This document shows positions 1 to 51,121 of a DNA stretch of 56,649 nucleotides, in pieces; within the stretch, counting starts at the first letter, position 1, and every line of letters begins with the position of its first letter. Source of the stretch: a virus; the IMG/VR virus record IMGVR_UViG_3300015242_000022, positions 1 to 56,649 of that record; one strand, written 5' to 3'. The notes beneath the pieces were generated by a model. That model was not told the origin of the DNA. It worked only from the letters and a program-made list of their open reading frames with translations, and did not search any database. A program made the position numbers and the translations under genes.

Positions 1-1674
1 GTATCCAAGGGAATCAGCGAAGATGTCGTAAATGAACGCCGCTCTCCCTTGATCTGGCATGGAGTTCAGGAATGGCATAAGGCGCTCCATGGCAAGCAGG
101 CGAGCCGCCTCACTACCGGAACCAATGGCCTTGACGATATTCAGGCGATCAATGTCCAGATTCTTAAATGCTTCAAGGGCCTCTTGCCCTCCAGCTTGAA
201 GGATCCGCTTCTTCAGGCCGACGATATAGCTGCCCCCTGGATCGAGTGGGCCGTAGTCATTCCTGGCAGCATTGACCATCCGGCGAACCATCTCACGAAC
301 CAGATTTTGCCAAGGATCGTAGAAGAGATTCAGGGCGGAAGTTGACATCTTTGCGATGCTCCCCAACTCAGCCTGAACCTGGAACTTGGTCTTCTCTGTA
401 TTAGAGTCGATCAACTGTTGGGTATTGGCATTGCCTGTACGGTCACGAAGCATCTGCTGGAAGCTTCCCAGCAATGGCATAATACTCTGAGAGAGATTGC
501 CAATCTGTGGAGCGGTGACATTGATCCTTGGACTCAAGATATTGTAGGCTCCCTGTGGGACGAACTGCATTTCCTGCATGGCCTGCTCATCTTCTGGTTG
601 GAAGGTCGGAGCCGATGCGAACATGCACAACTCCAGAAAGGCATTCTGCGCGCGGTCTAGGGCAGAGGAAATCGGAGACACCTCGAACCCTTGACCGCGA
701 ATCCCTTGGTAGTAGCCATTGGTTCCAACCGCATATGGGAATACTGTGTAGGCTTGATACACATTCTCGAAGCGTCCGATCTTCTTATAAAGGAAGTCCT
801 CGGTTTGCTCTGAGTCGTTGATCATGAAATGGGACACTCGCCCATCGAACTCCTGAACCCACGCATGAACTACTCGGATGCGTTGAGGTTGGGCTGTTCC
901 ACTTGTCCAGTAGATGTCATTGTTCTTGATCAGAACTTCCCACTTCTCCCAATCATATCCGCCATAGCTGGCAAACTGATTCCCGCCATTAGCGCATTCC
1001 ATGATGGCTTTACGACAAGCTTCGACATTCCAGCCTGACTGTTCCGCTATCTCAGGATCTTTGATCAGTTGGTATAGTTGAGTGGGGGAGTAGAATCGAA
1101 GGCAGCACGCGATACCAAGGTTATCCTGACCAACCTCCTGATCTCGTTCCATCTTGAAATCCGACAAATTGGTTGCCTTGAACCTCCAGTCGAACTCATC
1201 CATGAAGTAGGTGATACCTACGCCATGTTTAATGAAGAATGTGCAGAGACGGAGATAAGTTGGGAAGAAGTCAGGCCATGATCGGATGCACTTCGTTACC
1301 TCCTGAGCAACGATCTTCTCTATCTTACGACGGTCGTTCGGATCACCAACCGTAGTGGGGCACTCGAAGATTAGTTCCGTGGCATTGAAAATGTCAGTGT
1401 AGCCGGACGTAGCTGCATCCAGTACGGACCGTGCCCATCCCCATGCCACATTGGCCCGATAAGATTGACCGTTAGCCGCCAGTGCTGCCGAGGAAAGCGG
1501 CTGCGCTCCATCATATACAGCGTCAATCTTAGCTCTGGATAGCGAACTCTGCGCGTCAGCAAGACGTAGCTGGTTCCAAATCTGCTGTAGTGCCCAAGCG
1601 TTACCAATCCTCGACTCAGGAGGAGATCCATCAGGGTTGAGTGTAGCTAACTTATCAAGGAGATTCGAGGTCAT
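1..1674 (-). CDS. Portal protein (head-tail connector), 3' end beyond the left edge
   Basis: The minus frame is open from ATG at 1674 to the window edge (558 codons, no stop). The protein begins MTSNLLDKLATL and carries portal-like features: an N-terminal helical region rich in N, Q and R, an aromatic segment around residues 135-165 (FFPTYLRLCTFFIKHGVG), and a long Q/N-rich C-terminal helix region (SFQQMLRDRTGNANTQQLID, then FQVQAELGSIAKM) typical of the portal stem and wing. Portals form the dodecameric DNA channel at the capsid vertex. Its start overlaps the upstream gene's stop (ATGA at 1671-1674), implying translational coupling. The call rests on overall character and on lying near TerL; a capsid-vertex protein of another class is possible but less likely. 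Confidence 0.8.
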   Translation of the reverse strand, partial: MTSNLLDKLATLNPDGSPPESRIGNAWALQQIWNQLRLADAQSSLSRAKIDAVYDGAQPLSSAALAANGQSYRANVAWGWARSVLDAATSGYTDIFNATELIFECPTTVGDPNDRRKIEKIVAQEVTKCIRSWPDFFPTYLRLCTFFIKHGVGITYFMDEFDWRFKATNLSDFKMERDQEVGQDNLGIACCLRFYSPTQLYQLIKDPEIAEQSGWNVEACRKAIMECANGGNQFASYGGYDWEKWEVLIKNNDIYWTSGTAQPQRIRVVHAWVQEFDGRVSHFMINDSEQTEDFLYKKIGRFENVYQAYTVFPYAVGTNGYYQGIRGQGFEVSPISSALDRAQNAFLELCMFASAPTFQPEDEQAMQEMQFVPQGAYNILSPRINVTAPQIGNLSQSIMPLLGSFQQMLRDRTGNANTQQLIDSNTEKTKFQVQAELGSIAKMSTSALNLFYDPWQNLVREMVRRMVNAARNDYGPLDPGGSYIVGLKKRILQAGGQEALEAFKNLDIDRLNIVKAIGSGSEAARLLAMERLMPFLNSMPDQGRAAFIYDIFADSLGY

Positions 1675-3825: not shown

Positions 3826-5664
3826 ATGGCGCGCTATTACTTCGTCGGCCCACCTGAGAAGGGCTATATCTCCAAGTATGGGATGCAATGGAAGAAGGGA
3901 TATCCTCTCCTATTTGTTGAACTGACTTGCTTCCGGTTGAAGCTGGCTAAGAAGATACCCGCTGATCTTGGAGGGGTTGAAGCATGGCAGCACTTCATTC
4001 AGGTTACCAAGATGCTATGGCCCGAGAAGGATGGAGTTGACGCACAAGGAAGACGGGTTCCTATTTCGGTGAAGTTCGTATGGCACCCTTGGGCGGTAAA
4101 GATCATACAGAAATTATGCGCCAATGAGGTTGTTGCAATCGCTGGTGGGGGCGGATTTGGCAAGAGCGAGGTGCTTGCAATCTGGCTGATTATTCAATTC
4201 CTCTGTGACCCAAAAAACACCCTTTGTTTCGCTACCTCAACGACCATTGCTTCATCCAAAAAGCGTATCTGGGGTAAAATCGTACGCTATTGGTCGGCTA
4301 TCGAGAAACAGATGAATTGCGGTAAGTTGGTGGACTCTGCCGGTATGATTCGGTATGTCGAGAATGGCGAGCCCGTGCAGGGTGATCTGGCAGGAATAAC
4401 ACTGGTTCCTGCTGAGAAGAAGAAGGAGAAAGATGCCCTTGCTCGGCTTCGCGGAATGCACCAAAAACGTATCATATTTTGCGCGGACGAACTCGGCTCA
4501 CTTTCTCCGTCTGTCCCTGAAGCGGCCTTTATGAACTTGAAGTTGTCGGCAGATTACTTCCAGTTTACGGGCATTGATAATCCAAGCTCTTACTCTGACG
4601 CCTTCGGGGAAATCTCGATTCCAATTGATGGATGGAACTCCATATCTGTTGAGGATGAGGAGTGGAAAACGCCACGCGGAATCTGCATCCACTTTGATCT
4701 CACAAAGAACCCTAATATTTTGGAAGGATCGAAGATTTACTCATGGATGCCCACTCAGGAAGATATCGACGCTGAAATGAAGGTGCATGGTGGAAACACT
4801 GCTGCATTCTGGCAGATGTACCGTGGGTTCTGGACTCCTGTTGAGGTATCCGATCAGATCTACACTGAGGTTGAGGTGATAAATACGAAGGGTATGGAGA
4901 AGGCTGTATGGTTGAATGATAATCTTGTTCGCATCAGCTTTCTTGATCCATCATTTACCAATGGCGGGGACAGATCTATGGCCTGCTTTGCTACGGTAGG
5001 ATTAAATCTGGATGGCTTCAAAACACTCCAGTTCGATGATTTTCTAACCTTCAAGGAAGATATTACAGACAAGACCCTTACCCGATCCCAGCAGATGATT
5101 ATATGGTGGCGCAAAGCTTGCCTTGATAGAAGAGTTGCTCCTCGATACGCGGGTTACGATGCCACTGGTGGAGGCGGCCCGTTCGGGGACTCTGTGGACA
5201 CGATATTCTCACGAGAAACATTGCGCGTCCAGTTTGGATCGAAAGCATCCGATTTACCTGTATCTGCCTACGATTCCACTCCTGCCTGTGAGCGGTATGT
5301 AAATGCCGTTACCGAAATTTGGATGTCAGGAAAAGAGTACCTTCGCAGCAATCAGATCAGAGGAATTACACGGGAACTTCTTCAGGAGATGTGCATGAGA
5401 AAATTGGATAGGTCTGGAGAGCGTAGTTTGAATATACGCATGAAGGTCATGCCTAAGTCCGAGATGAAGGCCAAGCATGGAATGTCTCCAGATCTGGCCG
5501 ATTGCGCATTTGGTGCATTATTTCTAGCCAGAAAGTTGCTGGCCCTTGATTCGTCTTCTGCTGTAAAGGCTCAGGATACGGTAAATAAGAAGCCAGATGT
5601 TGATAACAACAGCTTTAAGCAGATGTTCAGAAAACTCGCCTCGGTGTACGATCAGGCCGCATGA
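3826..5664 (+). CDS. terL: Terminase large subunit (packaging ATPase-nuclease)
   Basis: This 612-residue protein has the complete two-domain architecture. A Walker A-like loop (GGGGFGKSE, about residues 105-113) and a Walker B strand (IIFCADELG, about 216-224) form the ATPase that pumps DNA through the portal. An RNase H-fold nuclease follows, with first acidic motif FLDPSFTNGGDRS (about 372-384) and C-terminal DLADC (about 555-560) supplying metal-binding aspartates. The length is normal for the family. ATG 3826 is the first start after the divergent gap and has no SD. Its end overlaps the next gene by ATGA, so a glycosyltransferase-like gene is translationally coupled to the packaging motor, an unusual pairing. 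Confidence 0.96.
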   Translation: MARYYFVGPPEKGYISKYGMQWKKGYPLLFVELTCFRLKLAKKIPADLGGVEAWQHFIQVTKMLWPEKDGVDAQGRRVPISVKFVWHPWAVKIIQKLCANEVVAIAGGGGFGKSEVLAIWLIIQFLCDPKNTLCFATSTTIASSKKRIWGKIVRYWSAIEKQMNCGKLVDSAGMIRYVENGEPVQGDLAGITLVPAEKKKEKDALARLRGMHQKRIIFCADELGSLSPSVPEAAFMNLKLSADYFQFTGIDNPSSYSDAFGEISIPIDGWNSISVEDEEWKTPRGICIHFDLTKNPNILEGSKIYSWMPTQEDIDAEMKVHGGNTAAFWQMYRGFWTPVEVSDQIYTEVEVINTKGMEKAVWLNDNLVRISFLDPSFTNGGDRSMACFATVGLNLDGFKTLQFDDFLTFKEDITDKTLTRSQQMIIWWRKACLDRRVAPRYAGYDATGGGGPFGDSVDTIFSRETLRVQFGSKASDLPVSAYDSTPACERYVNAVTEIWMSGKEYLRSNQIRGITRELLQEMCMRKLDRSGERSLNIRMKVMPKSEMKAKHGMSPDLADCAFGALFLARKLLALDSSSAVKAQDTVNKKPDVDNNSFKQMFRKLASVYDQAA

Positions 5665-6473
5665 ACATATCCCACTCTGGAGAGCTTGGAGACGTTATCT
5701 GGTCGCTTCCGGCCATCAGAGCATTAGGTGGAGGCTCGCTATTTGGGGTTAACCGCCCATGGACGCGTCCTGAATTCACGAAAAGGATCGCAGTATTAAA
5801 GCGGCTTCTGGAATCGCAGGATTACGTTCATCACGTTGGACCGCATGAAGGACAACATATCGACCTAGACATCTCTCCATTTCGCCGATCAGGGTTAATT
5901 ACGGGTCAAAGCATACCTGAACGCATCGCCCGATTCTGCCGAGCAACCCCTGATCTGGCTAATCCGTGGATTATGGTTGAACCAGACTCTCGATCATCTG
6001 GACGAATCGTCATTAACCAATGTGAGCGATGGACTTCATGGTTCATGCCGTGGAAACAGATCGTTGATACCTTTAAGAAGGATATCCTATTCGTTGGTTT
6101 GAAGCAGGAGCACAATAAGTTCCAAGAGCAATTCGGGAAGGTTTCGTATCAGTCGACAAATGATCTGTACGAAGTCGCATCCCTGATAAAAGGAAGTGAG
6201 TTATTTATTGGCAATCAGTCATCAGCTAACTCAATCGCTGAAGCAATGAAGCATCGGAAGATCCTAGCTGCCTGCCTGTATGCCTCTGATTGCTTATTCA
6301 AGGGCGACCATGCGACATACTGCATAGACGGCTCCCTATCCTTCGAGGCTTGCGGGAAATCCTTTCATTCTGAAGCTGTGAAGTTCATGCCCAGAAATCA
6401 CTCAGGAAACGATTGGGATAAGCCTGCATTGCTTGCCCGAGTTCGACAACTCATGATAGACAATGGCATATGA
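5661..6473 (+). CDS. GT9-like (heptosyltransferase-fold) protein A
   Basis: A 270-residue protein beginning with the GT9/ADP-heptose transferase-type signature SGELGDVIWSLPAIRALGG (residues 5-23). A second-domain segment DLYEVASLIKGSELFIGNQS (about 168-187) corresponds to the nucleotide-sugar-site region in which GT9 enzymes recognise a guarded target. GT9 enzymes are GT-B glycosyltransferases that transfer heptose or related sugars to cell-surface glycans. It is shorter than cellular GT9 enzymes (about 340 residues), so activity may be altered. It is coupled to terL (ATGA) and to a tandem paralog. It may decorate virions or change host LPS; both are inference. Confidence 0.7.
   Translation: MNISHSGELGDVIWSLPAIRALGGGSLFGVNRPWTRPEFTKRIAVLKRLLESQDYVHHVGPHEGQHIDLDISPFRRSGLITGQSIPERIARFCRATPDLANPWIMVEPDSRSSGRIVINQCERWTSWFMPWKQIVDTFKKDILFVGLKQEHNKFQEQFGKVSYQSTNDLYEVASLIKGSELFIGNQSSANSIAEAMKHRKILAACLYASDCLFKGDHATYCIDGSLSFEACGKSFHSEAVKFMPRNHSGNDWDKPALLARVRQLMIDNGI
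5971..5985 (-). repeat. Dispersed 15-bp motif, near copy
   Basis: Minus-strand CTGGTTCAACCATAA, one mismatch to CTYGTTSAACVATAA. It lies inside the GT9-like gene, antisense to it. Confidence 0.5.
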
Positions 6474-7471
6474 ATGATTTGAGGATCGGCTTTGGGCCAG
6501 ATAGTGGTGATCTAATCCACTTACTCCCGACAATCCGGCATCTCGGCGGAGGAGATGTTCATTTCATGGATGTTAAGGGCCGACGTGCTTTCACGCCTAG
6601 AATCCCTCTCCTCAAACGACTGCTCGAACTCCAGACCTACATAGGCCAAGTTCTTCCTCATGCTGGCGAAAAGCTGGATTACGACTTCTCCGACTTCCGT
6701 AAAAACGGGATGCCATGGGGGGTTCAACTCGGGAAGATTCATTCCGACTACTTCAATATCCCAACGGACTTCTCCAAACCATGGCTGGACTGTCCGAAAT
6801 CTCCTTATACGGCTGGTCGGATTATCATTTCCAAGACTGCTCGATATGCCAACCCGTTATTCCCTTGGAAGGAGTTGGTAACCGCATTCAGAGATCAGAT
6901 TCTTTTCGTCGGATTGTCTGGAGAACATCGGGATTTCTGCGTCTCTTATGGACAGGTGGAGTATCTGCCTACTGTTGATCTCTACGAGGTAGCTACAGCC
7001 ATTGCTGGATCAGATCTATTCATAGGTTGCCAGAGCAGCCCTAATGCCATTGCCGAGGGGCTGAAGCATCCCATGATCCAGGAGGTCTGCTTATGGGCAC
7101 CCGATTGTTATTACAAGCGATCAAATGCGATACACTGCTACGATGGTGCCTTGGAGTTCTACTTCAAAGGGACACATTTCAGGCATGAACGAGGAGTCCA
7201 GCGTAAGAAGGTTACGAGAAATATCACTCCCCTTGGCGGTTGGAAGATGATAGTCGGCAACAACAAGCTGAATCATTACGACTTCCGTTCAATCATGATG
7301 CTGGCTCAACGGGAATACGAGGTTGCCAGAAAGCCTGTTCCCGATGATCTGGCTAGGTTGATCGAGGAGGCGACTTTTCCTGAACCTGAGATTCTGCCTG
7401 ATTCCCCACAACTGTTGAAGGTGAAGGCGTTGATCGAGGGTTCGGCTACTCCTGTTCCAATAAGCAGTTAA
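6470..7471 (+). CDS. GT9-like protein B, tandem paralog
   Basis: This 333-residue protein is clearly related to the preceding one: DSGDLIHLLPTIRHLGGG at the N-terminus, LLKRLLELQTYIGQVLPHAG matching LLKRLLESQDYVHHVGPHEG, and VDLYEVATAIAGSDLFIGCQ matching the paralog's second domain. It carries about 60 extra C-terminal residues ending in a Pro/Glu-rich helix. Start ATG overlaps the upstream stop (ATGA). Its end overlaps the convergent methyltransferase by 4 bp, so no room remains for a terminator between the two strands. Probable local gene duplication followed by divergence. Confidence 0.7.
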   Translation: MNDLRIGFGPDSGDLIHLLPTIRHLGGGDVHFMDVKGRRAFTPRIPLLKRLLELQTYIGQVLPHAGEKLDYDFSDFRKNGMPWGVQLGKIHSDYFNIPTDFSKPWLDCPKSPYTAGRIIISKTARYANPLFPWKELVTAFRDQILFVGLSGEHRDFCVSYGQVEYLPTVDLYEVATAIAGSDLFIGCQSSPNAIAEGLKHPMIQEVCLWAPDCYYKRSNAIHCYDGALEFYFKGTHFRHERGVQRKKVTRNITPLGGWKMIVGNNKLNHYDFRSIMMLAQREYEVARKPVPDDLARLIEEATFPEPEILPDSPQLLKVKALIEGSATPVPISS

Positions 7472-11813: not shown

Positions 11814-12446
11814 TTACAATTCTTTAGCCTTCCAGCAAAATCCACGAACGCCTTCAAAAGCAATCTTCTGCTCCTCGCTTAATCCGTCCTTCTGGGCCGA
11901 CACAGGAAACCAGATAGCTGCTCGTAAATTACATCCGCATAAATTACATGAGTTCAGCGTGTAATCTGCGGGTAGCGTTCTTTTTCCCATAAGCCAACCT
12001 AGCAGACTCATAATGGCTGATGCGCACGATCCGCAGCTAAAGTCTTGCGGTTGATTGTGGGGGCATCTGGCGCAAATCTCAGCCCTTTCTGCCGCTATGC
12101 TCTCATCCACGTAAACGCCTCCGCTCTTCACAAAGGATTGTAGGACACGAAGGAACCCGATGGCCTCCTTAAATCCCGGTCTTTTCTTAGGGCGAATCTT
12201 GGTATCCATGATCCTCTTGCAAACCGATTGCCCGTAATTCGGATTCTCCTTACAAGCCTGATCCAACAGTTCGGCCTCCCACTCCTCACCAAACGCATAT
12301 CCGTTAGCCTTTCTATGACTCAATATATCGGATGTCCATGTCCGGTAATCGTGGCTCTTAAAGACTGCTCCTGATTCCGGCTGAGTGTACTTCCATCCTC
12401 CTGGAGGCGTGATGCTTCGATTGGTTATCTCGAATTCTACGGACAT
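11814..12446 (-). CDS. Cysteine-rich zinc-ribbon-like protein
   Basis: A 210-residue protein starting at ATG 12446 (MSVEFEITNRSITPPGGW), which overlaps the upstream stop in TGATG. A longer frame to 12530 would intrude on the upstream gene. The C-terminal half has CARCPHN, CGSC and CNLCGC (about residues 126-176), consistent with one or two zinc-binding knuckles, beside a hydrophobic segment ASAIMSLLGWLMG. Similar Cys-rich proteins occur beside phage structural/glycan genes, but no function is known. Confidence 0.6.
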   Translation of the reverse strand: MSVEFEITNRSITPPGGWKYTQPESGAVFKSHDYRTWTSDILSHRKANGYAFGEEWEAELLDQACKENPNYGQSVCKRIMDTKIRPKKRPGFKEAIGFLRVLQSFVKSGGVYVDESIAAERAEICARCPHNQPQDFSCGSCASAIMSLLGWLMGKRTLPADYTLNSCNLCGCNLRAAIWFPVSAQKDGLSEEQKIAFEGVRGFCWKAKEL

Positions 12447-13007: not shown

Positions 13008-16000
13008 TTACTTCATTTTGGCTTTATTTGACTCAGGGAATACTTCAGCACCAGCGTCTTTGGCGTACTTACTGTAAATATCCAGCTCATTCTTGAATCC
13101 TTGAAAGTCTTTCTTCTCAAGCGTCTTCAGGTTTTTCATCATCTGAAATGAAAGCTTATCCCCGTAAGCCTTGGCGTAGTTGTACCACTCACCATCTGAT
13201 ATCGGCCTCCCAACTGTCGCTTCAACGGTAGAGCGAACTGGCGTAGTAGGGCCTTGGCCATTCTTCAGGATCAGCTTGTAGAGAGCCTGCTTTGGCGAGT
13301 TCTCGGGAATATCTACCACAATAGGAGATCCCAGCTTCCAGAACTTCGCGCTCATGGTATTATCCCGGATAGGATCACCAAGGGCATTGATAGCTGGTTT
13401 TCCGAATATCGGGGCTGCAAAGGGGATATTGGACAGCAGAGATCCCTCCATGGACGTTCTGTCGGTTGGAGTGCTGAAGAAATCAGAGATGTTCTTTGTC
13501 AGCGAGTTCCCAAGAATCGGGATGAAGGTCTTCCCGGTAAAGGATACCTTGCTAGCCAGTTGTTCCAACGGAGGGACAGGTGATTTGTAGTCGTATATCC
13601 CTCGGGTGAAAGCTGAATACGGACCTCGCACCATACTTGCGCTGAAGATTGATCCGATAACCTCGGCTGCTCCATTCAAATCTTTTGGCGCTCTGCGGCC
13701 CTGATTCTTCTTGGACTTGAGTTTCCAGTCATCCAGGGCGGCAGCAAATGCCGTAGCCCACAAAATAGCCTCACCGCCTCTACCGACATTCAGGCCAAAT
13801 CTTACGCCATTGACCTTCAGGTAAATAGACCATGGCTGATACTTCTTTATCCATGCATCGTAATACGCCTTGTCGTTGATCTGAGATGGCCCGTTCCCGG
13901 TTACGACTAGGCTGTACTTCTTGTCGTCATCATCGCCAGATCCGCTTGCTCCCAGTCCTAGAAGTAGCGTAACAATCGTTCCCGCGATGGCGTCATTCAT
14001 CCTTGCTCTGGTTTGGATGTCGGTAGCAAGACTCCTGGCATAGGGGTTGTAATCTGAGTTCTTGAGGATTTTATTGATACCTAGACGAACGAATCCGTAA
14101 GGAGAATACCACGCTCCATTGTGAACAGTTCTGGCCGGGATCATGAAGAACCCGTACATGATGCGTGTAAAGATACTGGCGGCTGCTGGATCTTTATTGT
14201 CTCCAGCGATTTTCTTCATAATCCAAAATGCTGGAAAACTCGAAAACCCGAGATCCTCCTCCTTGTCTTTCCCTTTCCGGCCAACAACTCCCAGCCCGTC
14301 AAGTAATGCGGCTCGCTCGACATTGGTTCCCGAGATATTTTTGTCGGCTAAAGCTCCGCGCCATGCATCTCGTGCTGCATCATTAGAGGCTGCTCCTGCC
14401 TCGTTAGGAGCCATCCCTGCTGCTACGGCATTCTGGTAATATCTGTTCTTCACCTCGATCACATAGGACAAGGCTTGGTTGATTTCGGACTGAGGAATCC
14501 CGGCCCTCTTCATGGTGGATTGAGCGTACCTACTGAGATTATACTGCTCCACCACGGAAACTGAGCCCTGATCGAGTGCAGATAGAACTCGACGAGTATA
14601 GTCCGCAAGACCAAACACAATCTTCATCATAGCTTTTTTATAATCGCCCTTATCCCAATCTGAATAACCGCTCTCCAAAATAGCTTTCAGGTTCTTATTC
14701 CCAGCCAGGAATTCATTCGTCTCCTTGGTGTAGACATCATTCTTCAATGCAAAAGATACCTCGCTCACCCATCCATTCATAGCGTTTACGAAATTCCTAC
14801 CAACATTAGGAAGTTGGGCAGGATTAGCGGCAATCGCTGCTGCTCCATCCGTGATTACATCCCTCACTAGGAAAATGGCAGGAGAGCCTATATTTACCGC
14901 TGCTGTAGGAATACCGCCCAATGCCTGACCTGTGTAGTATTCGGAGATAGTAGCCTTCCACGATGGCTGGATCTTCGCCTTACGAACGATATCCATAATC
15001 TCATCCTGAGCCTTGGTCTTGGCCTGAAGGGTGGATGTCTCGCTGTTTATGATGTCGTCCAATTCCGCCAACCGCTTAAACTGTTCATCGCTAAAGCCAG
15101 TCCATCCGTTCTTCTTCGCAATCTCATCCGAGAATGAGGATGAAGGATCAAGAGCGCGGGATCGAACAGCTTGAAGTATCTTCTCCAGATCAGATTTTGC
15201 TTTAACGGGTTCAATCTTCTCACGATCTGCCCAGGGGGCATAGGTCTTGATGGATTTCTCGGCTGCTTTTATCTGGGCCTCCTCGAATCGCTTCTTGAGA
15301 ACCGGAGCCATGGCCTTTGCAATATTCGTGGCCTGCTCCGTGGATAACCCGGCACTCCGGAGATACTGCATGATCGCGTCATTGACCCATGTCGGACTGG
15401 ACTGCTGGCTAATCGGAGTAGCCAGTATTGCATCCACAATCGCCGCTAAAGGGCCTTTCTCGGCTGCATCCTGCTCTGCCTTGATCTGGTGGTTAGCCGA
15501 CTTTATCTGATGCTCTCTCCACGTAACGTCAGCCAATCTCTGGGCGGTTTCTTCCGATACTCCGGCATTGACGAGAGACGCAATAAGCTGACTCTGCCAT
15601 GGGCCTTTTCTTCCCATGTTCGGAGTGTTGGATAAATCGTCCTTGATGATCTTCTTGATGGCGTTTTGCTGGGGTTTGGACCATCCCTGTGTATCGCTCT
15701 GAGATTTAGCCATTCCCTCAATGATCCCTTCAGCGGTGGCGTCGGGGGTTTGGGCTGCGGCTTTCTTGGCGTCAGACTTCAGCTTTTGGGCAGCAATCTC
15801 TGTGGCCTTGGTCTGCATCATCCCATCAAAAGTCTTGTTTAACCATGATTCGAGAGCCTTGTATTCCATCTCCTTCCATGAAACAGCACCAAGCTTCCTT
15901 AGGATGGAATCTACGGCTGCTTTTTTGGCAGATACCTCATCTCCTTTGTTGCCTTTATGGAGATCACGCAACGTTGTGTTGGCCTCAGAAAGCTCTGTGC

Positions 16001-19000
16001 TGATAAGCCTGCGCATCATGGCGTCACTCACTGGCATATTCAGTTGTCGCTGCATGGAAGTATCCCATGCTGTCAACAGGGATGAGTAGTACGCCTTTGC
16101 CGCCAGCTTGGACTTCTCGTCAGAAGCGGATTCGATGGCCTTCTCCATATTATCCTTGATGGACTCACGTATCTTCTCATCAGCCAACTTCACTTTCTCC
16201 TTGGATAGTTCCTGCTTTCCGAGAATGGACGCCACTTTCTCGATATCCGTCAACTTGGTATTCGGAGGAGTTCCTTGAAGTCCCATGCCTTTAAGGGTCT
16301 GCTGGACGATAGCTGCTAGTTGTGCGGTCTGAGCCTGATCAATTTCAGCCAATGGGCCAATCTTGTTCTCGGTGGAGGCCAATGTTTTCCAGAATGTGCT
16401 ATTCAGTGCATTTGCTCCGCTCTCCTTCAAGGTGCCGGCATACGATTTCACTCCTGTTGCTACCAAGCTCTTAATGGTCTTCTCACTCGCATTCGGCCCA
16501 GCTTCCGGGTTGTAAGTGAAAGTGAATTCTCCTTTATCGTCATAGCCCATCTGAGCTAGTTGACGGATGGCCTCCAACATGTCGTTACCAATGGTAATTC
16601 CCTCACGCTGGAATGTCTTCTGAATGGTCTGCTCAATGCCTTCAAATCGCTTCTGAAGTCCTTCCAGGGCATCCTCGGGAGTCAGCTTCATGCGGGTAAG
16701 CTCTTGCTTGATCTCCTTGATTTTCGCCAAATCTCCCAATGTCGGCGTTCCTCCTGCCAATATCCTGGCCGTCTGCTCATCCGCTTGGTCGATAACTGCC
16801 TTGGCTCCAGTGATCAGATGGCTCTCGAATTCTGCTCTGGATCTCAGGAATTGAGCATTCGCGCTCTGGCCTGTACCAAGTTCCGAAGTCGGCATCAGGT
16901 TAACCGTCGCCAGCAGATGATTCAGCATCTTGGAATCACCTGTAGCTGCCAGTCTCACGGAGTAGCCGAGAAGTTCATTCTGAAGCAGAGCCGCGCCCAA
17001 GTCGGTTCCTGTGATTCGGTTGATCTCTCCAGCGGCTTCATTGGCTTCTCCGGTTTCCAGATCAGTTAGGCGACCGATATAATCCCATGCGTGGGCGGTT
17101 GATTCTTCCGATGGTTGCTGACTTCCGTTGAAAGCTTTCTCGCGAACCGCCTCCTTGGCTGGCTCCATTTTGACAGGGTTGTAGAGATGGCCAACTTCCT
17201 CCACTCCTCCAACTTGGCTGCGCCTTGCTTCTTCTCGTTTGGAGAATGTCCGTATCCCGTCATCCTCCTTCTTGGTGGCGGCCCGTAGATCCTGTATATA
17301 ATCATCACTGGCCAACTTGGCTTCAGTTGCTTGTTCAACAATACGAGTCTCATCCGTCTCTGCTCCATATTTGATGGGCAAGTATTGCGTCCGCTCTCTG
17401 GAGCCTGGGAAGATATCGTCAACCGAAGTAATCCCCTCTTTGGCGAGAGTTGATCGAAGTTGAGCGGTTACGCGCTTGATGACCTTATTTACCCCCTCAT
17501 GAGACATGCCGATAAGATCGCCAATGGTTCGCAAGTCGTAGCCTTCTGCTCGCATTTGCAAGGCTGTACGCTCACGTCCAGGAAGCTTCTTTACCGCATC
17601 ACGGATGATATCGAATCGTCCAACATCTGCACCTTCTGGAATTGGTTCAGAAGATACCGAATCAATCTTCTCCCCGCCTCCTTCATGGAGAGGTTCATTG
17701 AGGCTCTCGTATTGCTTGCGAAGCTGCTGCTCGTAGATCGTCTTGAACTGATTTCCGACCACTTGGTTCACGAACTTTCCGGAGTTACCTCTGCTCGGAT
17801 CGAACTTCTGGATGGCGTTAAACAGCTTGAGATGTCCCTCCTGTTGAAGATCGTTCACATCCATGCCTGAGACATTGCTGAACTTGTAGGCGAGGTTCTT
17901 AATGATCTTGGCCGTCTCTTCGCTTTTTATGATGTTCGCCTGTTCATCTGTAATTGGACCGAAGGTCTGAACTAGGTTTGTTGCTCCTAGCGGACGATCG
18001 CTTTCACTTTTTGCGAAGAGCTTATCCAGTTTCGACCGTTCAGAAGATTCTCCCTTGGGGATGAAGTTTTTCGATGGATATCCGCCATTGATGATCGCCT
18101 CGTAGTCATTGATAAACTTGGCAACCTGCGACTTGGAAAGAATTCCGTCATCACCAAATTCCTTTACGATCTGCTTGAGATCACCAAATGCCTTGTGGAA
18201 CCACTTCCCGATCTCATTGATGAACTGCTTAAAGAGCGATTCCGTGATCTGGCCATTCCGCTTTAGCTGATGTAGCTGTCGAGTCAGTTCTATGACGTAG
18301 CTGATATGATTCGGGGCACTCTTTGATGAGCTTTCTGCCCCATCATTAAGCTCATTAATCAATTCGCCAACTATCCGTATCTTGGATCGAGATTCCCAGA
18401 AGGGTTGGTAATAGAGGTTGTATGCGCCAACTAACGCTTTTTCTATAACATCCTTCTGCTTCTTATCCTTGATCTGATTCCACCGTTCAATGAGATCTCG
18501 CTGAAGTTCAACTCCCTTGTTGCGGATAAACGTGCTGTAATATCCCGGCTTTCCGGCCTCCTCCCATTGCTTACGAAGAGCCAGATGTTGCGCAACATGG
18601 ATCGCCTCCTCCTCAAATACCTTTGAAATCTTGGCAGGAGATTCGTTCGACTCAAACGAGTCCGGGTTGATATTTAGTACCAGATCGCCATTACCGAGAA
18701 ATCCTACATTGCTCTCTGTTCCATCTTTTTCAAAGGAAACCTGGATTCCGGCATCCTCAATTCCTTGCAGTTTGGAGAAATCGACATTCGCTAGGTCTTT
18801 TCCAAACGCACTCTCGGCACGACGTTTAAGATCCTTTGTCCTAGACGCTCGTTCATCTCCCAAATTCTTGTTGCTGACATTGGAAGCCTCAGTTCTCGAT
18901 CCTCCTTCAATGGGGGCTTTGGGAGCCACTTGTGTAACGGATTTTTCATTCGGTGTTGTTTTCTTTGGTTTCTGCTTTCCTTTAATCGGCCTGAAATCGG

Positions 19001-21434
19001 TTGACAGTACATTACGCTGAATTTCTCCAGTCTGCTCATTCTTTAAGTCGTAATATTGCTCGCCCTTGGATTTATCGGATTCGGTTTGCGGGACGATTGC
19101 TTCAACTGTGAAGGGCGTAAGCTGCTTCCCGAGCATAACCCTTTGTCCGACTGCTGGTTCTGGAATAGTTTCAGGAATGCTTTGACGTTCTGCTTCGACG
19201 GGTTGTGAAATTGTAGGTTCATTTACTTTCTCGGCTTCTGCGGCTGGCTGCTCAACTTCTGCTGGTGCCAACTCTGTAGTTGCTTGCTCACTCGGGATGG
19301 CGGTTTGGGCTGGGGCTTCTTCATTTACGACTGGACGAGTTTCGCTTCCTTCTGCTCCTTGGTTAACTTGAGGCTCCGGTTGTTCCAAAACTCTCGATGA
19401 GCCTTCACTATTTGCGGGAATTCCTTCTTCTCCCGCCTGTGGTACGACTTCAAGGTTCGTTGTATTATCTGTCGATCTGTCATTTGCTTGTTCAACAATA
19501 GGTTCTTCGGGAATTACTACTGAATTCCCATTTTGTGCAGAATTAGTAGTTAGCTCTTCTGTATTGGCCTCTTCCAGTTTACGAAAGGCTTCATCCGCCT
19601 CATCAAGCTCATCTGTCAGTTCAGGCGAAGCCACTGAAGCCGGGGTATTCGCCACATGCTCAGCAATCTTCGCAACTGTTGCACCAGTCAATGGGGCGTA
19701 ATTCTCATCGGCATTGGTAGCAGCCGCACCTAACCGTTCAACCTTTACATCCTTTGACGCCTGTTCGACTTCTTTCCTGATCTCAGGAGGAGTGGATGGC
19801 TCTTTGTGTAAAGCTTCGGCAACTTGATGCGCTCCACCAAACAGACCACCTGCTACGCCTCCAATAATACCAGCATAAACCGCTTCATTAATGATCTGCT
19901 CCTGGGATTTGTCTGGATTGGTGGTAGCTTTCTCGACAATCCCTTGAACGAGTTGATCTGTGAATTCCTCGGCAGCTTCAGCAGAGAAATCTATTCCGAG
20001 TTCCTTGGTTATCCCTAGAACGGTTTTCTTGGCTGCTTCCTTGGCCTCATTTCGGAATACCGACTCCACACCATACTTGCCTCCCAATGTGGTTATAATG
20101 GCCGTAGAAAGCCCTGTAGCGATGGCTGGGACAAAAGCAGCCTGTGCGGCCTCGTCTTCGGTTTTACCCTGTTTCTGATAATCCTCCATCGCTTGGAGAT
20201 AAGATGACCCGAATTGCTGGAATCCTGATCCAACTACTGATCCCGCGAATCCTGCTCCACCAGCCTTTTCTAGGAGGTTGGTTGCTCCGGCTAGGGCGCG
20301 AACTCCTGATAGTCCTTTAACTGCGATCCCTGCTGCTCCACCAGCTAGTAATGGAGCAACGGTACTGATGACTCCTGCTGTGATATCGGCTACGGGCTTG
20401 GCTCCTCCGAGAAGTTCGGATTGTTGGGAAAGCTTACTCGCCTCGGCATTGGTATCAGCAGCCACATCCTGAATGGCGTCCTGAGCGATTCCTTCTCCTG
20501 GGACGAGTTGTGCAACAGCCCGCGCAACACCGTATCCGCTTTGGGCGGTTTGCTGCCATCCGAGTTTAGCCCCTAGACCGATTTGTCCAACAGTAGCGCG
20601 GATGTTCTCAATGGTTCCAAGGTCTTTCGACTTCTTGAGATAATCTTGCAGGCGCGCTGTTGGATCATCTCCATAGTTGGCGAGAGGGTTGTCCCGTTTG
20701 AAGGTTTTATACTCATCCGTGCCTTCCAGTACTCCCAGCATTTGATCTGCGGTCTTCTGGCGAATCTGTGGATAATTGGCAAGAGTTTTGGCCTTCTCCT
20801 GTGGAGTGGCATCCGTTTCCTCAACTGCCTTTTTGTAGGCTTCGGGATCAAAAGTCAGTTCAGGCTGTACATAGATATTCCCCTCAAGGGCAAATGCTGG
20901 AATCTTTCCATCATTCCAGTCTTTAGCCAACTTAGCTCGCTCTAAATAATTATCCTGCTTTTCTTTCGGAATTCCTGTAAAATCAGTGTCTGCCGGAACA
21001 GCCGGAACCCCCTGTTTGGCTAGAAGTTCCTGATCCTTCAGTTGATTGGATAATCCTGTCACCATCTCCAGCGGCGTCTTAGGCTGGGCCGCTATGGCCT
21101 TCTGCTGGGCGTTATCGGCCTCTCTGGCTACTTTGGTTCCCTGCTCGTAGGTTACTGGCTCATCGCCGTATTCCTTGGCTTTGGTCTTAACGAAATCCGC
21201 GAAATTGGTTTTCCCATCATTGTCGTTCCAGAGATTGTTTCCCTTGAAATAACTGATCGCGCTGTCGCTCCAGTTCGTGAGCTTCGCCATCTTCTGCATG
21301 GGGTCGAGAGATTTGAACGAATCATCTTTCTCGATGGTTTGCCACGATTCCGGCTGCTTCTCGATCTCGAATCCTTCTGGTAGGGAAGATTCGGGAGTTT
21401 CTATTTCAAAACCAGCAGGAAGGGCGGATGGCAC
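13008..21434 (-). CDS. Giant polyvalent/ejection virion protein with embedded sigma-70-like domain
   Basis: A 2808-residue protein from GTG 21434 (in-frame TAA just upstream). The N-terminus has two LPxGFEIE repeats (residues 6-27), as in phage ejected proteins. Residues about 340-550 hold Gly/Ala-rich hydrophobic segments (TAGVISTVAPLLAGGAAG; AGIIGGVAGGLFGGA). Residues about 640-760 are an acidic Pro/Glu linker. Near 940 the motif VFEEEAIHVAQH resembles a degenerate metallopeptidase site. Residues about 1160-1330 match sigma regions 2 and 4: DVNDLQQEGHLKLFNAIQKF, FDPSRG, then LPGRERTALQMRAEGYDL and IGDLIGMSHEGVNKVIKR. The remainder is mostly helical, with SAIFLVRD-type and TIVTLLLGLG membrane-like segments near 2180 and 2490. 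It is probably packaged and injected; the sigma part may redirect host RNA polymerase. Family assignment is by pattern; the sigma call is strong. Confidence 0.9.
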   Translation of the reverse strand: MPSALPAGFEIETPESSLPEGFEIEKQPESWQTIEKDDSFKSLDPMQKMAKLTNWSDSAISYFKGNNLWNDNDGKTNFADFVKTKAKEYGDEPVTYEQGTKVAREADNAQQKAIAAQPKTPLEMVTGLSNQLKDQELLAKQGVPAVPADTDFTGIPKEKQDNYLERAKLAKDWNDGKIPAFALEGNIYVQPELTFDPEAYKKAVEETDATPQEKAKTLANYPQIRQKTADQMLGVLEGTDEYKTFKRDNPLANYGDDPTARLQDYLKKSKDLGTIENIRATVGQIGLGAKLGWQQTAQSGYGVARAVAQLVPGEGIAQDAIQDVAADTNAEASKLSQQSELLGGAKPVADITAGVISTVAPLLAGGAAGIAVKGLSGVRALAGATNLLEKAGGAGFAGSVVGSGFQQFGSSYLQAMEDYQKQGKTEDEAAQAAFVPAIATGLSTAIITTLGGKYGVESVFRNEAKEAAKKTVLGITKELGIDFSAEAAEEFTDQLVQGIVEKATTNPDKSQEQIINEAVYAGIIGGVAGGLFGGAHQVAEALHKEPSTPPEIRKEVEQASKDVKVERLGAAATNADENYAPLTGATVAKIAEHVANTPASVASPELTDELDEADEAFRKLEEANTEELTTNSAQNGNSVVIPEEPIVEQANDRSTDNTTNLEVVPQAGEEGIPANSEGSSRVLEQPEPQVNQGAEGSETRPVVNEEAPAQTAIPSEQATTELAPAEVEQPAAEAEKVNEPTISQPVEAERQSIPETIPEPAVGQRVMLGKQLTPFTVEAIVPQTESDKSKGEQYYDLKNEQTGEIQRNVLSTDFRPIKGKQKPKKTTPNEKSVTQVAPKAPIEGGSRTEASNVSNKNLGDERASRTKDLKRRAESAFGKDLANVDFSKLQGIEDAGIQVSFEKDGTESNVGFLGNGDLVLNINPDSFESNESPAKISKVFEEEAIHVAQHLALRKQWEEAGKPGYYSTFIRNKGVELQRDLIERWNQIKDKKQKDVIEKALVGAYNLYYQPFWESRSKIRIVGELINELNDGAESSSKSAPNHISYVIELTRQLHQLKRNGQITESLFKQFINEIGKWFHKAFGDLKQIVKEFGDDGILSKSQVAKFINDYEAIINGGYPSKNFIPKGESSERSKLDKLFAKSESDRPLGATNLVQTFGPITDEQANIIKSEETAKIIKNLAYKFSNVSGMDVNDLQQEGHLKLFNAIQKFDPSRGNSGKFVNQVVGNQFKTIYEQQLRKQYESLNEPLHEGGGEKIDSVSSEPIPEGADVGRFDIIRDAVKKLPGRERTALQMRAEGYDLRTIGDLIGMSHEGVNKVIKRVTAQLRSTLAKEGITSVDDIFPGSRERTQYLPIKYGAETDETRIVEQATEAKLASDDYIQDLRAATKKEDDGIRTFSKREEARRSQVGGVEEVGHLYNPVKMEPAKEAVREKAFNGSQQPSEESTAHAWDYIGRLTDLETGEANEAAGEINRITGTDLGAALLQNELLGYSVRLAATGDSKMLNHLLATVNLMPTSELGTGQSANAQFLRSRAEFESHLITGAKAVIDQADEQTARILAGGTPTLGDLAKIKEIKQELTRMKLTPEDALEGLQKRFEGIEQTIQKTFQREGITIGNDMLEAIRQLAQMGYDDKGEFTFTYNPEAGPNASEKTIKSLVATGVKSYAGTLKESGANALNSTFWKTLASTENKIGPLAEIDQAQTAQLAAIVQQTLKGMGLQGTPPNTKLTDIEKVASILGKQELSKEKVKLADEKIRESIKDNMEKAIESASDEKSKLAAKAYYSSLLTAWDTSMQRQLNMPVSDAMMRRLISTELSEANTTLRDLHKGNKGDEVSAKKAAVDSILRKLGAVSWKEMEYKALESWLNKTFDGMMQTKATEIAAQKLKSDAKKAAAQTPDATAEGIIEGMAKSQSDTQGWSKPQQNAIKKIIKDDLSNTPNMGRKGPWQSQLIASLVNAGVSEETAQRLADVTWREHQIKSANHQIKAEQDAAEKGPLAAIVDAILATPISQQSSPTWVNDAIMQYLRSAGLSTEQATNIAKAMAPVLKKRFEEAQIKAAEKSIKTYAPWADREKIEPVKAKSDLEKILQAVRSRALDPSSSFSDEIAKKNGWTGFSDEQFKRLAELDDIINSETSTLQAKTKAQDEIMDIVRKAKIQPSWKATISEYYTGQALGGIPTAAVNIGSPAIFLVRDVITDGAAAIAANPAQLPNVGRNFVNAMNGWVSEVSFALKNDVYTKETNEFLAGNKNLKAILESGYSDWDKGDYKKAMMKIVFGLADYTRRVLSALDQGSVSVVEQYNLSRYAQSTMKRAGIPQSEINQALSYVIEVKNRYYQNAVAAGMAPNEAGAASNDAARDAWRGALADKNISGTNVERAALLDGLGVVGRKGKDKEEDLGFSSFPAFWIMKKIAGDNKDPAAASIFTRIMYGFFMIPARTVHNGAWYSPYGFVRLGINKILKNSDYNPYARSLATDIQTRARMNDAIAGTIVTLLLGLGASGSGDDDDKKYSLVVTGNGPSQINDKAYYDAWIKKYQPWSIYLKVNGVRFGLNVGRGGEAILWATAFAAALDDWKLKSKKNQGRRAPKDLNGAAEVIGSIFSASMVRGPYSAFTRGIYDYKSPVPPLEQLASKVSFTGKTFIPILGNSLTKNISDFFSTPTDRTSMEGSLLSNIPFAAPIFGKPAINALGDPIRDNTMSAKFWKLGSPIVVDIPENSPKQALYKLILKNGQGPTTPVRSTVEATVGRPISDGEWYNYAKAYGDKLSFQMMKNLKTLEKKDFQGFKNELDIYSKYAKDAGAEVFPESNKAKMK
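17330..17344 (+). repeat. Dispersed 15-bp motif copy (antisense inside giant gene)
   Basis: Plus-strand CTTGTTCAACAATAC, 14 of 15. The coding strand reads IVEQA. Confidence 0.65.
19487..19501 (+). repeat. Dispersed 15-bp motif copy (antisense inside giant gene)
   Basis: Plus-strand CTTGTTCAACAATAG. The coding strand again reads IVEQA, in the disordered linker. Confidence 0.65.
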
Positions 21435-21719: not shown

Positions 21720-22814
21720 TTATTGGGTCACCCAATTTCCGTCTCTGTAGATCTTGACCTCGCCAGTCTGCTTATTAACCGCCCTGGTTCCATTGGCGAT
21801 TGGTGTAGGGGTGGCGCTGGATGCTCCGGCTCCGACCAGTGATCCTGGAGTAACCTTGGAATTTACAGAACTCGATTGGTCGCTATGCAGAGATTCATAC
21901 TCCTGTAGCTGTTTATCGAGGAAATCGTATCGCTGTTTATCTCGTGAACTCAGGTCATCGTACTCCAGCTTTTCACCTTTTGGTCCTTTCAGAAAATTGT
22001 CATGACGCAGGGACATGGCATTGTAATCAGCGGGAGTGAACTGACGCGCTATAGCTTTCGCAGTTGTCGAATCTTCCTTGGCCCTGCTGATCTGCTTCTG
22101 GGATACCGCTAGGGCGTTAAATGGATCGCCGCCATTGGACGCCAATGCCTCATCATAGGCCGACAGCGCGTCTTCTCCGTACTTAGCCGCTTCTCCTCTT
22201 GTGCTGTTAACGGAGTGCTGCTTGAGTATTTCCTGCTGCGCTTGGGCTGCGGCTTGGCGTCCAATAAATGTGCGATCATCGGTTTCCTCAGAATGGACAT
22301 GCTGCTGTCTCGTGCTAAGAAGCCGTGAAGCTAGTTCACGAAATCCAGGGTTTTGAAAAGCCAAGGGATTTGCTTTCTGGAATTCGGTGAACTTGGCCTC
22401 AAAGTCTGGAGATTTCGGATCGAAGTCGCCTAGCTGTTGTGTCGCCGTTAGTGCCTGTTGATTTACTCTTGTGTCGTACAGATCCTTTTTCTGGGCCAAC
22501 ACCTGGTTGAGTTGTTGTCCACTGACCTCAAGCTGCTCCCGTTGCTGCTGAGTCTGCAACTGTTGCATAGCCAGTTGCTCTTGAATGGGGACAAGCGGTT
22601 GGCCATATCGGGTTGTACGTAGAGGATAGCCGTTGTTGGCGTCTGGGAACTCGTATTCACTTTTAACGGATGGGCTCATTACGGCCATGTTCTGCATCCG
22701 TTGAACCATGGGCGGAATTGTCTGAACAGGCATACTAGGGTAGATTGAGCCAATATAGGCGCCTCCGGGTAGTGGCGATATGAATATCGTTTGAGCGATC
22801 AGTAGGGAAAGCAT
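21720..22814 (-). CDS. Glutamine-rich coiled-coil virion-type protein
   Basis: A 364-residue protein: a short hydrophobic start (MLSLLIAQTIFISPLPGG), a long Q-rich helix (about residues 80-120, QEQLAMQQLQTQQQREQLEV), a charged middle, and a Ser/Pro/Thr linker ending in a GTRAVNKQTGEVKIYRDGNW beta-hairpin module. Such composition is typical of minor virion or internal proteins. It lies between the giant protein and another disordered protein in the same direction, so all three are probably co-packaged. A TTGACA-N17-TAAGTA promoter ends 5 nt before ATG, predicting a leaderless mRNA. Confidence 0.6.
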   Translation of the reverse strand: MLSLLIAQTIFISPLPGGAYIGSIYPSMPVQTIPPMVQRMQNMAVMSPSVKSEYEFPDANNGYPLRTTRYGQPLVPIQEQLAMQQLQTQQQREQLEVSGQQLNQVLAQKKDLYDTRVNQQALTATQQLGDFDPKSPDFEAKFTEFQKANPLAFQNPGFRELASRLLSTRQQHVHSEETDDRTFIGRQAAAQAQQEILKQHSVNSTRGEAAKYGEDALSAYDEALASNGGDPFNALAVSQKQISRAKEDSTTAKAIARQFTPADYNAMSLRHDNFLKGPKGEKLEYDDLSSRDKQRYDFLDKQLQEYESLHSDQSSSVNSKVTPGSLVGAGASSATPTPIANGTRAVNKQTGEVKIYRDGNWVTQ

Positions 22815-22819
22815 TCATA

Positions 22820-22848
22820 TACTTACTGTTCGTTTTTCGGGTTGTCAA
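22820..22848 (-). promoter_or_regulatory. Sigma-70-type promoter (minus), leaderless
   Basis: Minus strand TTGACA (22848-22843), 17-nt spacer, TAAGTA (22825-22820). Start codon at 22814 is only 5 nt beyond the -10, so transcription should begin at or in the ATG. Confidence 0.7.
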
Positions 22849-22849
22849 C

Positions 22850-23802: not shown

Positions 23803-24582
23803 ATGTCGCCAACCAGAATCGCAAAACCTTCTCGCATGAAGAAGATCAAGAGTGTCGTTATACGAGAGGATTACGTACTCATCACCGGAGATTTCCGAAA
23901 AGCCCTCATTCTCGGTCAGTTTCTGTACTGGACTGAAAAAGCTCGTGATGTCGATAAGGTCATCGAAGAGCATAACCAGCGTCGAACAGTTTCAGGAGAA
24001 GAGCCTATTCCGTATTGCGAGGGGTGGATTTACAAGAGCGCAAAGGAGCTTCGGGTCGAATTGATGCTGGATTGTTCCGAAGAGAAGATACGGAAGGAGG
24101 TGTCTCTTCTGAAGGATATGGGGTATCTCATAACCCGAAGCAACCCCCTTTATGGGTTTGATAGAACCATCCAATACCGCGTCGATTTTCTGTTCCTTTG
24201 TAGGAAATTGAAGGAGATCGGGTTCGGGTTAGATGGGTACTATTTCTCTGAACTTGGAGCGCATCCTGAGATTGACGCCATTCCACACTGTGTGGGATCG
24301 AGGCCACGCTATGTGGAAGCAATACCAGAGATTACAGGTTCAGAGATTAAAGAAAAAGAAAAGAAGGGGCTGTTCCATCCTTTATATCCTTATCCAAAGA
24401 CGGTGGAAGAGATGCAGGAGATTCTGGAATTCCATGGCATAGAGTATAATCCAAACCACGGAGATAAGTTCTTTTTCGAGATGGAAGCATGTGATTGGAT
24501 CGTTAAAGGACAACGGGTATTCGACTGGATATCGCTTTATCAGGCTAGGCTGAACTTTATAGATGAACAGAATAGCTGGTAG
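23803..24582 (+). CDS. Winged-helix replication-type protein
   Basis: A 259-residue protein. The N-terminal half (about residues 14-135) has the pattern seen in phage/plasmid replication and primosome-type proteins: VVIREDYVLITGDFRKALIL, QFLYWTEKA, WIYKSAKELRVELML, EEKIRKEVSLLKDMGYLIT and GFDRTIQYRVDF. A basic linker (KEKEKKG) leads to a C-terminal helical region. The family binds DNA and recruits helicase. Start ATG 23803 abuts a hairpin; ATG 23836 (MKKIKSVVIRED) is the alternative and would free the site. A second initiator-like gene lies at 54.3 kb, so this one may be a regulator instead. Confidence 0.6.
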   Translation: MSPTRIAKPSRMKKIKSVVIREDYVLITGDFRKALILGQFLYWTEKARDVDKVIEEHNQRRTVSGEEPIPYCEGWIYKSAKELRVELMLDCSEEKIRKEVSLLKDMGYLITRSNPLYGFDRTIQYRVDFLFLCRKLKEIGFGLDGYYFSELGAHPEIDAIPHCVGSRPRYVEAIPEITGSEIKEKEKKGLFHPLYPYPKTVEEMQEILEFHGIEYNPNHGDKFFFEMEACDWIVKGQRVFDWISLYQARLNFIDEQNSW

Positions 24583-27999: not shown

Positions 28000-28023
28000 G
28001 TTGAGTGGATATTGACTTATTAG

Positions 28024-28052
28024 TTGACAGGATTCAACTCTTTTTGTAGATA
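28024..28052 (+). promoter_or_regulatory. Consensus promoter pointing into gene-free region
   Basis: TTGACA (28024-28029), 17-nt spacer, TAGATA (28047-28052), identical in form to the early-gene promoters at 38.8-42.8 kb. No plus-strand gene follows, so it probably drives a non-coding RNA. Confidence 0.75.
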
Positions 28053-33395: not shown

Positions 33396-33410
33396 TTATG
33401 GTTGAACGAG
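33396..33410 (-). repeat. Dispersed 15-bp motif copy before a start codon
   Basis: Minus-strand CTCGTTCAACCATAA, then ATATG: the motif ends 2 nt before the 33393 start. Confidence 0.85.
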
Positions 33411-33986: not shown

Positions 33987-34015
33987 TATATACGACATCA
34001 GGTGATGGGTGTCAA
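33987..34015 (-). promoter_or_regulatory. Sigma-70-type promoter (minus)
   Basis: TTGACA (34015-34010), 17-nt spacer, TATATA (33992-33987). Start codon at 33973 is 13 nt further, giving a leader of about 6 nt. The -35 overlaps the 3' end of the upstream gene. Confidence 0.75.
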
Positions 34016-34215
34016 CTTACTTGCCGAAGGATATCCTCTGCCTGCTCAACTATCTCCCGACAATCTGCGGAGTTGTGGACGTACATTCCGTCCCTGATAA
34101 CAGGTTTGCACCAGCAGGTTTCTGGATAATCCAGTTCATGCTCCTCCTCGTCATACAGGGGATAGACGTTTATGATGGTAGGTTGATCAATGTTCGGTCC
34201 CCAAGGCTTATTCAT
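34012..34215 (-). CDS. Hypothetical protein, 67 aa
   Basis: Begins MNKPWGPNIDQPTIINVYPL. YPETCWCKPVIRDGMYVHNS (about residues 30-49) followed by DCREIVEQAEDIL. The CxC...H...C set could bind a metal; similar short W-C-x-P phage proteins are of unknown function. ATGA-coupled to the upstream gene. Confidence 0.55.
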   Translation of the reverse strand: MNKPWGPNIDQPTIINVYPLYDEEEHELDYPETCWCKPVIRDGMYVHNSADCREIVEQAEDILRQVS

Positions 34216-38830: not shown

Positions 38831-38840
38831 TTTTGTGTAG

Positions 38841-38869
38841 TTGACAGACACAACCTTGCGCAGTAGATA
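38841..38869 (+). promoter_or_regulatory. Early promoter P1 (leaderless)
   Basis: TTGACA (38841-38846), N17, TAGATA (38864-38869), then 5 nt to the ATG at 38875. The expected start site falls on the start codon. Confidence 0.85.
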
Positions 38870-39630: not shown

Positions 39631-39631
39631 G

Positions 39632-39660
39632 TTGACAGAGGCATTTCTCGCTAGTAGATA
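39632..39660 (+). promoter_or_regulatory. Early promoter P2
   Basis: TTGACA (39632-39637), N17, TAGATA (39655-39660). Start codon at 39681, leader about 13 nt. Begins 1 nt after the preceding stop codon. Confidence 0.85.
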
Positions 39661-40553: not shown

Positions 40554-40560
40554 ACCCTAG

Positions 40561-40589
40561 TTGACAAGCTCGACATCTCGAAGTAGATA
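40561..40589 (+). promoter_or_regulatory. Early promoter P3
   Basis: TTGACA (40561-40566), N17, TAGATA (40584-40589). ATG at 40625, leader about 28 nt rich in CACA and lacking SD. Confidence 0.85.
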
Positions 40590-41539: not shown

Positions 41540-41554
41540 CTCGTTCAACCATAA
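41540..41554 (+). repeat. Dispersed 15-bp motif copy before a start codon
   Basis: CTCGTTCAACCATAA, exact, 14 nt before the ATG at 41569. Confidence 0.85.
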
Positions 41555-42808: not shown

Positions 42809-42813
42809 GTCAG

Positions 42814-42842
42814 TTGACAGAACCTCAGTATATCAGTAAATA
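42814..42842 (+). promoter_or_regulatory. Early promoter P4 (near-leaderless)
   Basis: TTGACA (42814-42819), N17, TAAATA (42837-42842), then 8 nt to the ATG at 42851. Confidence 0.85.
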
Positions 42843-47817: not shown

Positions 47818-47832
47818 TTATGGTTGAACGAG
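47818..47832 (-). repeat. Dispersed 15-bp motif copy at predicted transcription start
   Basis: Minus-strand CTCGTTCAACCATAA, exact, beginning 4 nt after the -10 of the 47837-47865 promoter and 14 nt before the start codon. Confidence 0.85.
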
Positions 47833-51111: not shown

Positions 51112-51121
51112 CTGAAACAAA

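Follow-up and report, generated by a model that had tools for sequence, protein, structure and literature searches.

A protein of 2808 amino acids encoded by a phage genome contains a complete σ unit, consisting of σ region 2, a linker and σ region 4, and this assignment is well supported. The best reading of our data is that the giant protein would serve as the carrier of an injected σ factor, i.e., as a new cargo in the known class of polyvalent phage proteins. The window, by which we mean the whole stretch of 56,649 nt that was analysed, is part of a virus record of 71,048 bases. The gene of a portal-like protein is split across the ends of this record: its first 558 residues are encoded at 1–1674 (minus strand) and a later part at 70394–71047 (L002:13745–14399), and both parts match a single 793-aa protein of relatives. 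Since this gene runs across the record ends, the record is circularly permuted and close to complete, though it is classed as linear.

The σ unit of the giant protein

The gene of the giant occupies positions 13008–21434 on the minus strand and starts with GTG, and its 2808-codon frame is uninterrupted from end to end. The whole σ unit corresponds to residues ~1175–1338. Region 2 (residues 1177–1230; 17745–17906, minus strand) was detected with Pfam PF04542 and with PHROG profiles, the linker (SLNEPL...; residues 1231–1280; 17595–17744, minus strand) was delimited by alignment with E. coli σ factors, and the helix-turn-helix (HTH) region 4 (residues 1281–1327; 17454–17594, minus strand) was detected with PF04545. 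A preliminary description made from the DNA letters had placed a σ70-like factor with regions 2 and 4 in correct order and spacing at 17440–17960, which is correct within ~50 bases; the observation was confirmed by Pfam, PHROG, a σ profile compared with shuffled sequences, and structure matches.

For PF04542, the whole protein gave E = 1.1e-5 and a 215-aa piece 8.8e-7, the score of 29.1 bits in the piece being above the cut-off of 24; the giant thus contains the region 2 domain of the σ70 family. PF04545 matched with 5.8e-6 in a search of the phage's own genome and 4.3e-4 in the piece, where its 20.2 bits, taken alone, are below the cut-off of 24.1. The identity of region 4 as an HTH following region 2 is given by its order and spacing together with the PHROG, FliA and structure matches. 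Two PHROG σ families cover regions 2 and 4 in order (2.4e-14 and 3.1e-13, whole protein), and the closest solved structures by sequence are FliA (4.6e-8) and RpoS (2.2e-5). A profile built from four E. coli σ factors gave 41.3 bits for the segment versus 4.6 bits for the best of 2000 shuffles. The only σ region 4 match in the 71-kb genome is that of the giant itself.

Structure prediction, which the preliminary description had proposed as a check against σ folds, agreed with this assignment. A single-sequence AlphaFold model had a mean pLDDT of 70.5, with the σ4 helices at 81–92, and a pTM of 0.39. Nearly all top Foldseek matches in the PDB and in the viral BFVD collection were σ factors, with a probability of ~1.0 and with ECF types leading. 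TM-scores were low (~0.3) and the rmsd was high, as would follow from misplaced relative positions of the two domains, given the pTM value. The model therefore supports the σ fold rather than a detailed domain arrangement.

The alignment with E. coli σ factors shows the compact layout of ECF (group 4) σ factors, that is, σ2 and σ4 joined by a short linker, with no σ3 domain. In region 2.2, the core-binding helix retains its D, Q and E (DLQQEGHLKLFNAIQKFDP here versus DLIQEGNIGLMKAVDKFEY in RpoD); Q and E of this region, which match Q406 and E407 of RpoD, touch the β′ coiled coil. In the σ70 family, binding of the RNA polymerase (RNAP) core goes with initiation at specific promoters; the retained letters make such core binding plausible here. 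The σ4 recognition helix is changed and reads SHEGVNKVIKR in place of the TRERIRQIEAK of RpoD.

A family of giant proteins with an interchangeable cargo slot

Relatives in IMG/VR were reached via the large terminase subunit (3826–5664, plus strand; phrog_2, 4.4e-6, and matches in relatives) and more were found with a two-sequence alignment of the C-terminal half of the giant as the query. A tblastn search with the whole giant against phages and plasmids gave no match, and neither did the terminase against phages; the σ piece retrieved three weak matches from phages, and none of the direct peptide scans of viral contigs, whether run with the giant, its σ piece or its C-terminus, uncovered a relative. 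The C-terminal alignment query likewise had no relative in 84,980 bacterial and archaeal genomes, so that neither a prophage nor a host could be assigned.

The homologous giants are 1960–3497 residues long. They share with the protein studied here a conserved C-terminal half of ~1,400 residues (residues 1402–2790; 13065–17231, minus strand) at 33–41% identity, and many of them share a small conserved domain (residues ~740–830; 18945–19217, minus strand) at 29–48% identity. An N-terminal domain (residues ~26–89; 21168–21359, minus strand) is common to giants of the terminase relatives, extending to more distant ones, with ~30% identity to the N-termini of L069–L072. The LPxGF repeats noted in the preliminary description are indeed present, as two copies at the very N-terminus (LPAGFEIE and LPEGFEIE, residues 5–12 and 18–25; 21360–21422, minus strand). 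So are its glycine-rich hydrophobic segments, which hydropathy places at residues 354–372 and 432–450 (glycine/alanine-rich; 20085–20375, minus strand), and its linker, which is rich in E, P, Q, A, S and T (residues ~560–760).

Doubled N-terminal tags that are short, aromatic and acidic also occur in the giants of L053, L060, L062, L065, L068, L078, L085, L090, L095, L102, L104 and L105. The two copies within a protein are alike and the sequence differs between phages; examples are GLFDDLLEED, ITFLDEEED, EFEFLGEV and LPxGFEIE, among others. The doubled tag may mark the protein for packaging and evolve together with a partner.

As can be seen from these comparisons, the family has a common architecture: a doubled N-terminal tag, usually a zincin peptidase with an HExxH motif, a variable cargo slot and the conserved C-terminal half. 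A HELGH-type metallopeptidase motif (HExxH) was found in most relatives in which the region is covered. The corresponding region of our giant (18030–18857, minus strand) carries, by motif scan, EEAIH (residues 942–946; 18597–18611), which is without the first His. The E-for-H form is also found in the more distant giants L069, L070 and L073, and the EEAIH region is 22.6% identical to the EELIH region of L073 (residues 880–1121). A low-confidence model of the region shows a helix, three strands and the motif helix, in the order known from the zincin core of polyvalent proteins (PMC5512222); a structure search with this model gave no match. We consider the region a candidate zincin-like peptidase, possibly degenerate.

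The slot that follows is at least partly covered in ~35 giants. An ADP-ribosyltransferase domain, ART-PolyVal, is present in 12 of 46 records, in 10 of these over the cut-off. In eight of the 10 giants measured, 30–40 residues separate its end from the conserved C-terminal block; in the other two the distance is 65 (a partial match) and 281 residues. The σ domain ends 64 residues before the same block. C5 cytosine methylase, phosphoribosyltransferase (PRTase)-like and ParB domains lie in the neighbouring stretch of relatives' giants. By comparison, this is one slot with interchangeable cargo, occupied by σ here where many relatives have ART. Region 2 of σ was found in the giants of none of the 116 relative records, many of which are fragments with the slot outside their span; the single sub-threshold match lay within a 49-aa frame. 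The σ domain is present in one genome only, so that selection for its function cannot be read from conservation. The E. coli σ profile was also run on the genes upstream of the giants in L106 and L112, where 10–14 bits were obtained and judged too weak.

Polyvalent proteins are defined by unrelated domains in one large polypeptide and by variable cargo, and both are seen across the homologous set, whose cargo comprises ART, C5-methylase, PRTase, ParB and σ; in our giant, σ is the only firmly assigned cargo. The zincin-like metallopeptidase is the commonest polyvalent domain and not an obligatory one; most relatives with this region covered have HExxH in this place, and our giant has EEAIH and a poor model.

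Possible route of the σ unit into the host transcription machinery

The gene order around the giant runs from a candidate ejection gene through the giant and a 210-aa gene to terminase, portal and capsid-type genes, the last three within ~10 kb. The candidate ejection protein is encoded directly upstream of the giant (21720–22814, minus strand) and has homologues directly upstream of the giants in L053, L068, L095 and L105; homologues of the 210-aa gene (11814–12446, minus strand) lie directly downstream of relatives' giants. A block of this kind is where tailed phages keep internal and ejection proteins. PHROGs named none of these block genes in the relatives. The preliminary description had taken the giant for an ejected, polyvalent-type protein: the polyvalent part is borne out by ART-PolyVal, methylase and HExxH in the homologues, and the location in the virion is suggested by the head/ejection block. 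Injection together with the DNA would be in keeping with gene order and homology.

We favor, with modest confidence, the view that a tailed phage of ~71 kb packages the giant in its virion and ejects it as a polyvalent protein, and that the ECF-like σ in the slot of this protein recruits the host polymerase. Every step of the following course is inferred. The giant would be packaged and would enter the cell together with the DNA; the σ unit would perhaps be cut free by the preceding zincin-like region or by a host protease; σ2 and σ4 would bind the host RNAP core; and the host polymerase would be steered to phage promoters prior to any phage gene expression.

The usual occupant of the slot offers another way to read the same cargo. 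Host proteins are the presumed targets of polyvalent ARTs, RNAP is modified by T4 Alt (PMC5512222), and the σ4 recognition helix of our giant is unusual; the ejected σ domain might then merely occupy the RNAP core or displace the host σ factor, shutting off host transcription with no selection of phage promoters. We consider this unlikely, as both DNA-facing domains (σ2 and the σ4 HTH) are kept and modelled, which is superfluous for such a task, and the genome has its own promoter series. Some other function in DNA delivery is also conceivable, with the giant ejected or structural and the σ-like domain no more than a binder of DNA or polymerase that, for example, anchors the incoming DNA or lets a transcribing polymerase pull it in. 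Sigma domains do bind DNA. A part in DNA entry, or in the steps right after it, has been suggested for giants of this class (PMC5512222). The retained core-binding letters and the nature of the slot, which in relatives carries enzymes and not DNA tethers, make this account improbable.

We give as little credence to an action late in infection, in which the giant would be absent from the virion and its σ unit would work once made in the cell, as in SPO1, T4 and phiEco32. Phage σ factors known so far do act after their synthesis in the cell (PMC4496689), and a promoter-like copy with one mismatch (TAAGTA; 22820–22849, minus strand) precedes the gene upstream of the giant; the polyvalent domains of relatives and the position in the head/ejection block are against it, and a late-gene σ factor needs no fusion to 2600 further residues. 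Finally, a vestigial or chimeric segment with no function, which its occurrence in one metagenomic record might suggest, is very improbable in view of the open frame, the G+C content of 0.489 for the σ segment versus 0.494 for the giant gene, and the intact core-binding letters.

The ejected σ carrier that we favor can be compared with several known systems. Polyvalent proteins are likewise giant and multidomain, and members of the class that are homologous in other respects differ in their cargo (Iyer et al. 2017, PMC5512222); the giants of the relatives studied here carry ART-PolyVal, methylase, PRTase and a zincin-like peptidase. A σ domain is not among the domains described for the class, and the word “sigma” is absent from the main text of that survey, which names N4-like polymerase and enzymes that modify proteins as the ways in which phages deal with early transcription (PMC5512222). 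For polyvalent ARTs, an action on the host comparable to that of T4 Alt on RNAP has been proposed (PMC5512222, PMC7824862), and σ and ART may therefore solve one problem in two ways. The virion RNAP of N4 (~3,500 residues; PMC12633501, PMC4496689) is likewise giant and ejected, and it delivers transcription machinery to the infected cell. N4, however, injects a whole polymerase, whereas the giant described here would supply the host enzyme with a specificity factor alone; an N4-like polymerase reading was rejected, as Pfam and PHROGs searches of the whole protein and of its pieces found no polymerase domain. T4 Alt, an ADP-ribosyltransferase, is also injected, as our giant presumably is, and redirects host RNAP; in contrast, it does so by covalent modification and not as a σ subunit, and it is no sequence relative of the giant.

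Phage σ factors SPO1 gp28/gp34 and phiEco32 gp36 have the same σ2/σ4 fold and redirect the host polymerase but, unlike the giant, they are small proteins in their own right, synthesised once infection is under way. One peptide of a phiEco32-type σ factor was detected in a concentrated preparation of phage SU10, alongside DNA polymerase and other non-structural proteins (PMC4281155), and is probably carry-over. The ECF σ factors SigE, SigH and RpoE, which gave the best structural matches, have the same two-domain layout with no σ3; they differ in that our domain is embedded in a 2808-aa protein and in that its linker resembles region 3.2 of other σ factors. The openly accessible journal papers searched yielded no account of a σ factor that is injected, packaged, encapsidated or part of the virion. 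Each part of the arrangement is known, and the combination, as read from the genome, appears to be new.

Known takeovers at DNA entry use either an injected polymerase (N4, crAss-like and phiKZ-like phages) or a modified host polymerase (T4 Alt). An injected σ factor, if true, would be a third and cheaper route: it would not depend on early genes being expressed from promoters that the host recognises, and the first phage genes might escape host control. The interchangeable slot cargo also provides a natural series (ART, methylase, σ) for comparing the effects of cargo on early transcription.

Promoter-like series, repeats and other genes

Upstream regions were defined with a home-made gene caller. 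The bipartite element GTTGACA-N17-TARATA occurs at nine sites in the genome, seven of them exact and two with one mismatch, mostly 5–35 bases before a start codon. Exact TAGATA copies are found on the plus strand at 38840–38869 (5 nt before the start codon), 39631–39660, 40560–40589 and 28023–28052, the last with no gene start assigned downstream; exact TAAATA copies lie at 42813–42842 (plus strand) and 51083–51112 (minus strand). In addition to the one-mismatch copy before the gene upstream of the giant, another (TATATA) is located at 33987–34016 (minus strand). The short distance to start codons suggests that messages from this series may be leaderless or nearly so. The TAGATA and TAAATA variants were observed 8 and 9 times versus ~1 expected, whereas canonical TTGACA/TATAAT pairs were at chance level. 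The same search in 21 relative records retrieved none or one site each. PDB sequence searches with the genes behind the series found no function.

A series of this kind is what a dedicated σ factor would leave behind, and in this single genome it weakly supports such a factor. The vegetative σ factor of the host would account for the series just as well, and a different host would be an equally simple cause of its restriction to this phage; the relatives probably differ in host. The link between the σ domain and these promoters is weak, since ordinary primary σ factors use the same −35 box and the σ4 recognition helix differs from that of RpoD. The proposal that the virion-delivered σ, bound to the host RNAP core, starts the earliest phage transcription at the GTTGACA-N17-TARATA series, taking the place of the ART-based covalent hijack of sister phages, is tentative, and we would sooner doubt it than rely on it.

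A 15-base element, CTYGTTSAACMATAA, with the palindromic core GTTSAAC is present in 28 copies genome-wide with at most one mismatch, for example at 33396–33410 (minus strand), 41540–41554 (plus strand), 47818–47832 (minus strand) and, outside the window, 56996–57010. A similar 15-mer gave 27 matches at up to two mismatches versus 0.1 expected. An ATG-started frame begins within 25 bases after 10 of 23 copies of the GTTSAAC element (random rate, 0.16). A weaker form is present in 3–7 copies in seven sister genomes and in none of 14 more distant records. The element could act as an operator; alternatively, it could be a sequence associated with starts.

An unbiased dyad count in the relatives yielded mainly dyads of GGAGC/GTAGC and ACTGG words. 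Many dyad copies are found in the sister genomes G057, G058, G029 and G019, for example GGAGC-N19-ACTGG (up to 27 copies); these dyads are possibly coding repeats.

No tRNA genes were found in the window. A gene for a T7 gp4/Twinkle-type helicase is located at 55057–56667 (record coordinates, partly beyond the window), and a DnaD/O-like initiator gene lies far from it, at 23803–24582. Two neighbouring genes at 5661–7471 (plus strand), coding for 270 and 333 aa, both match one single gene of relatives and look like a tandem duplication.
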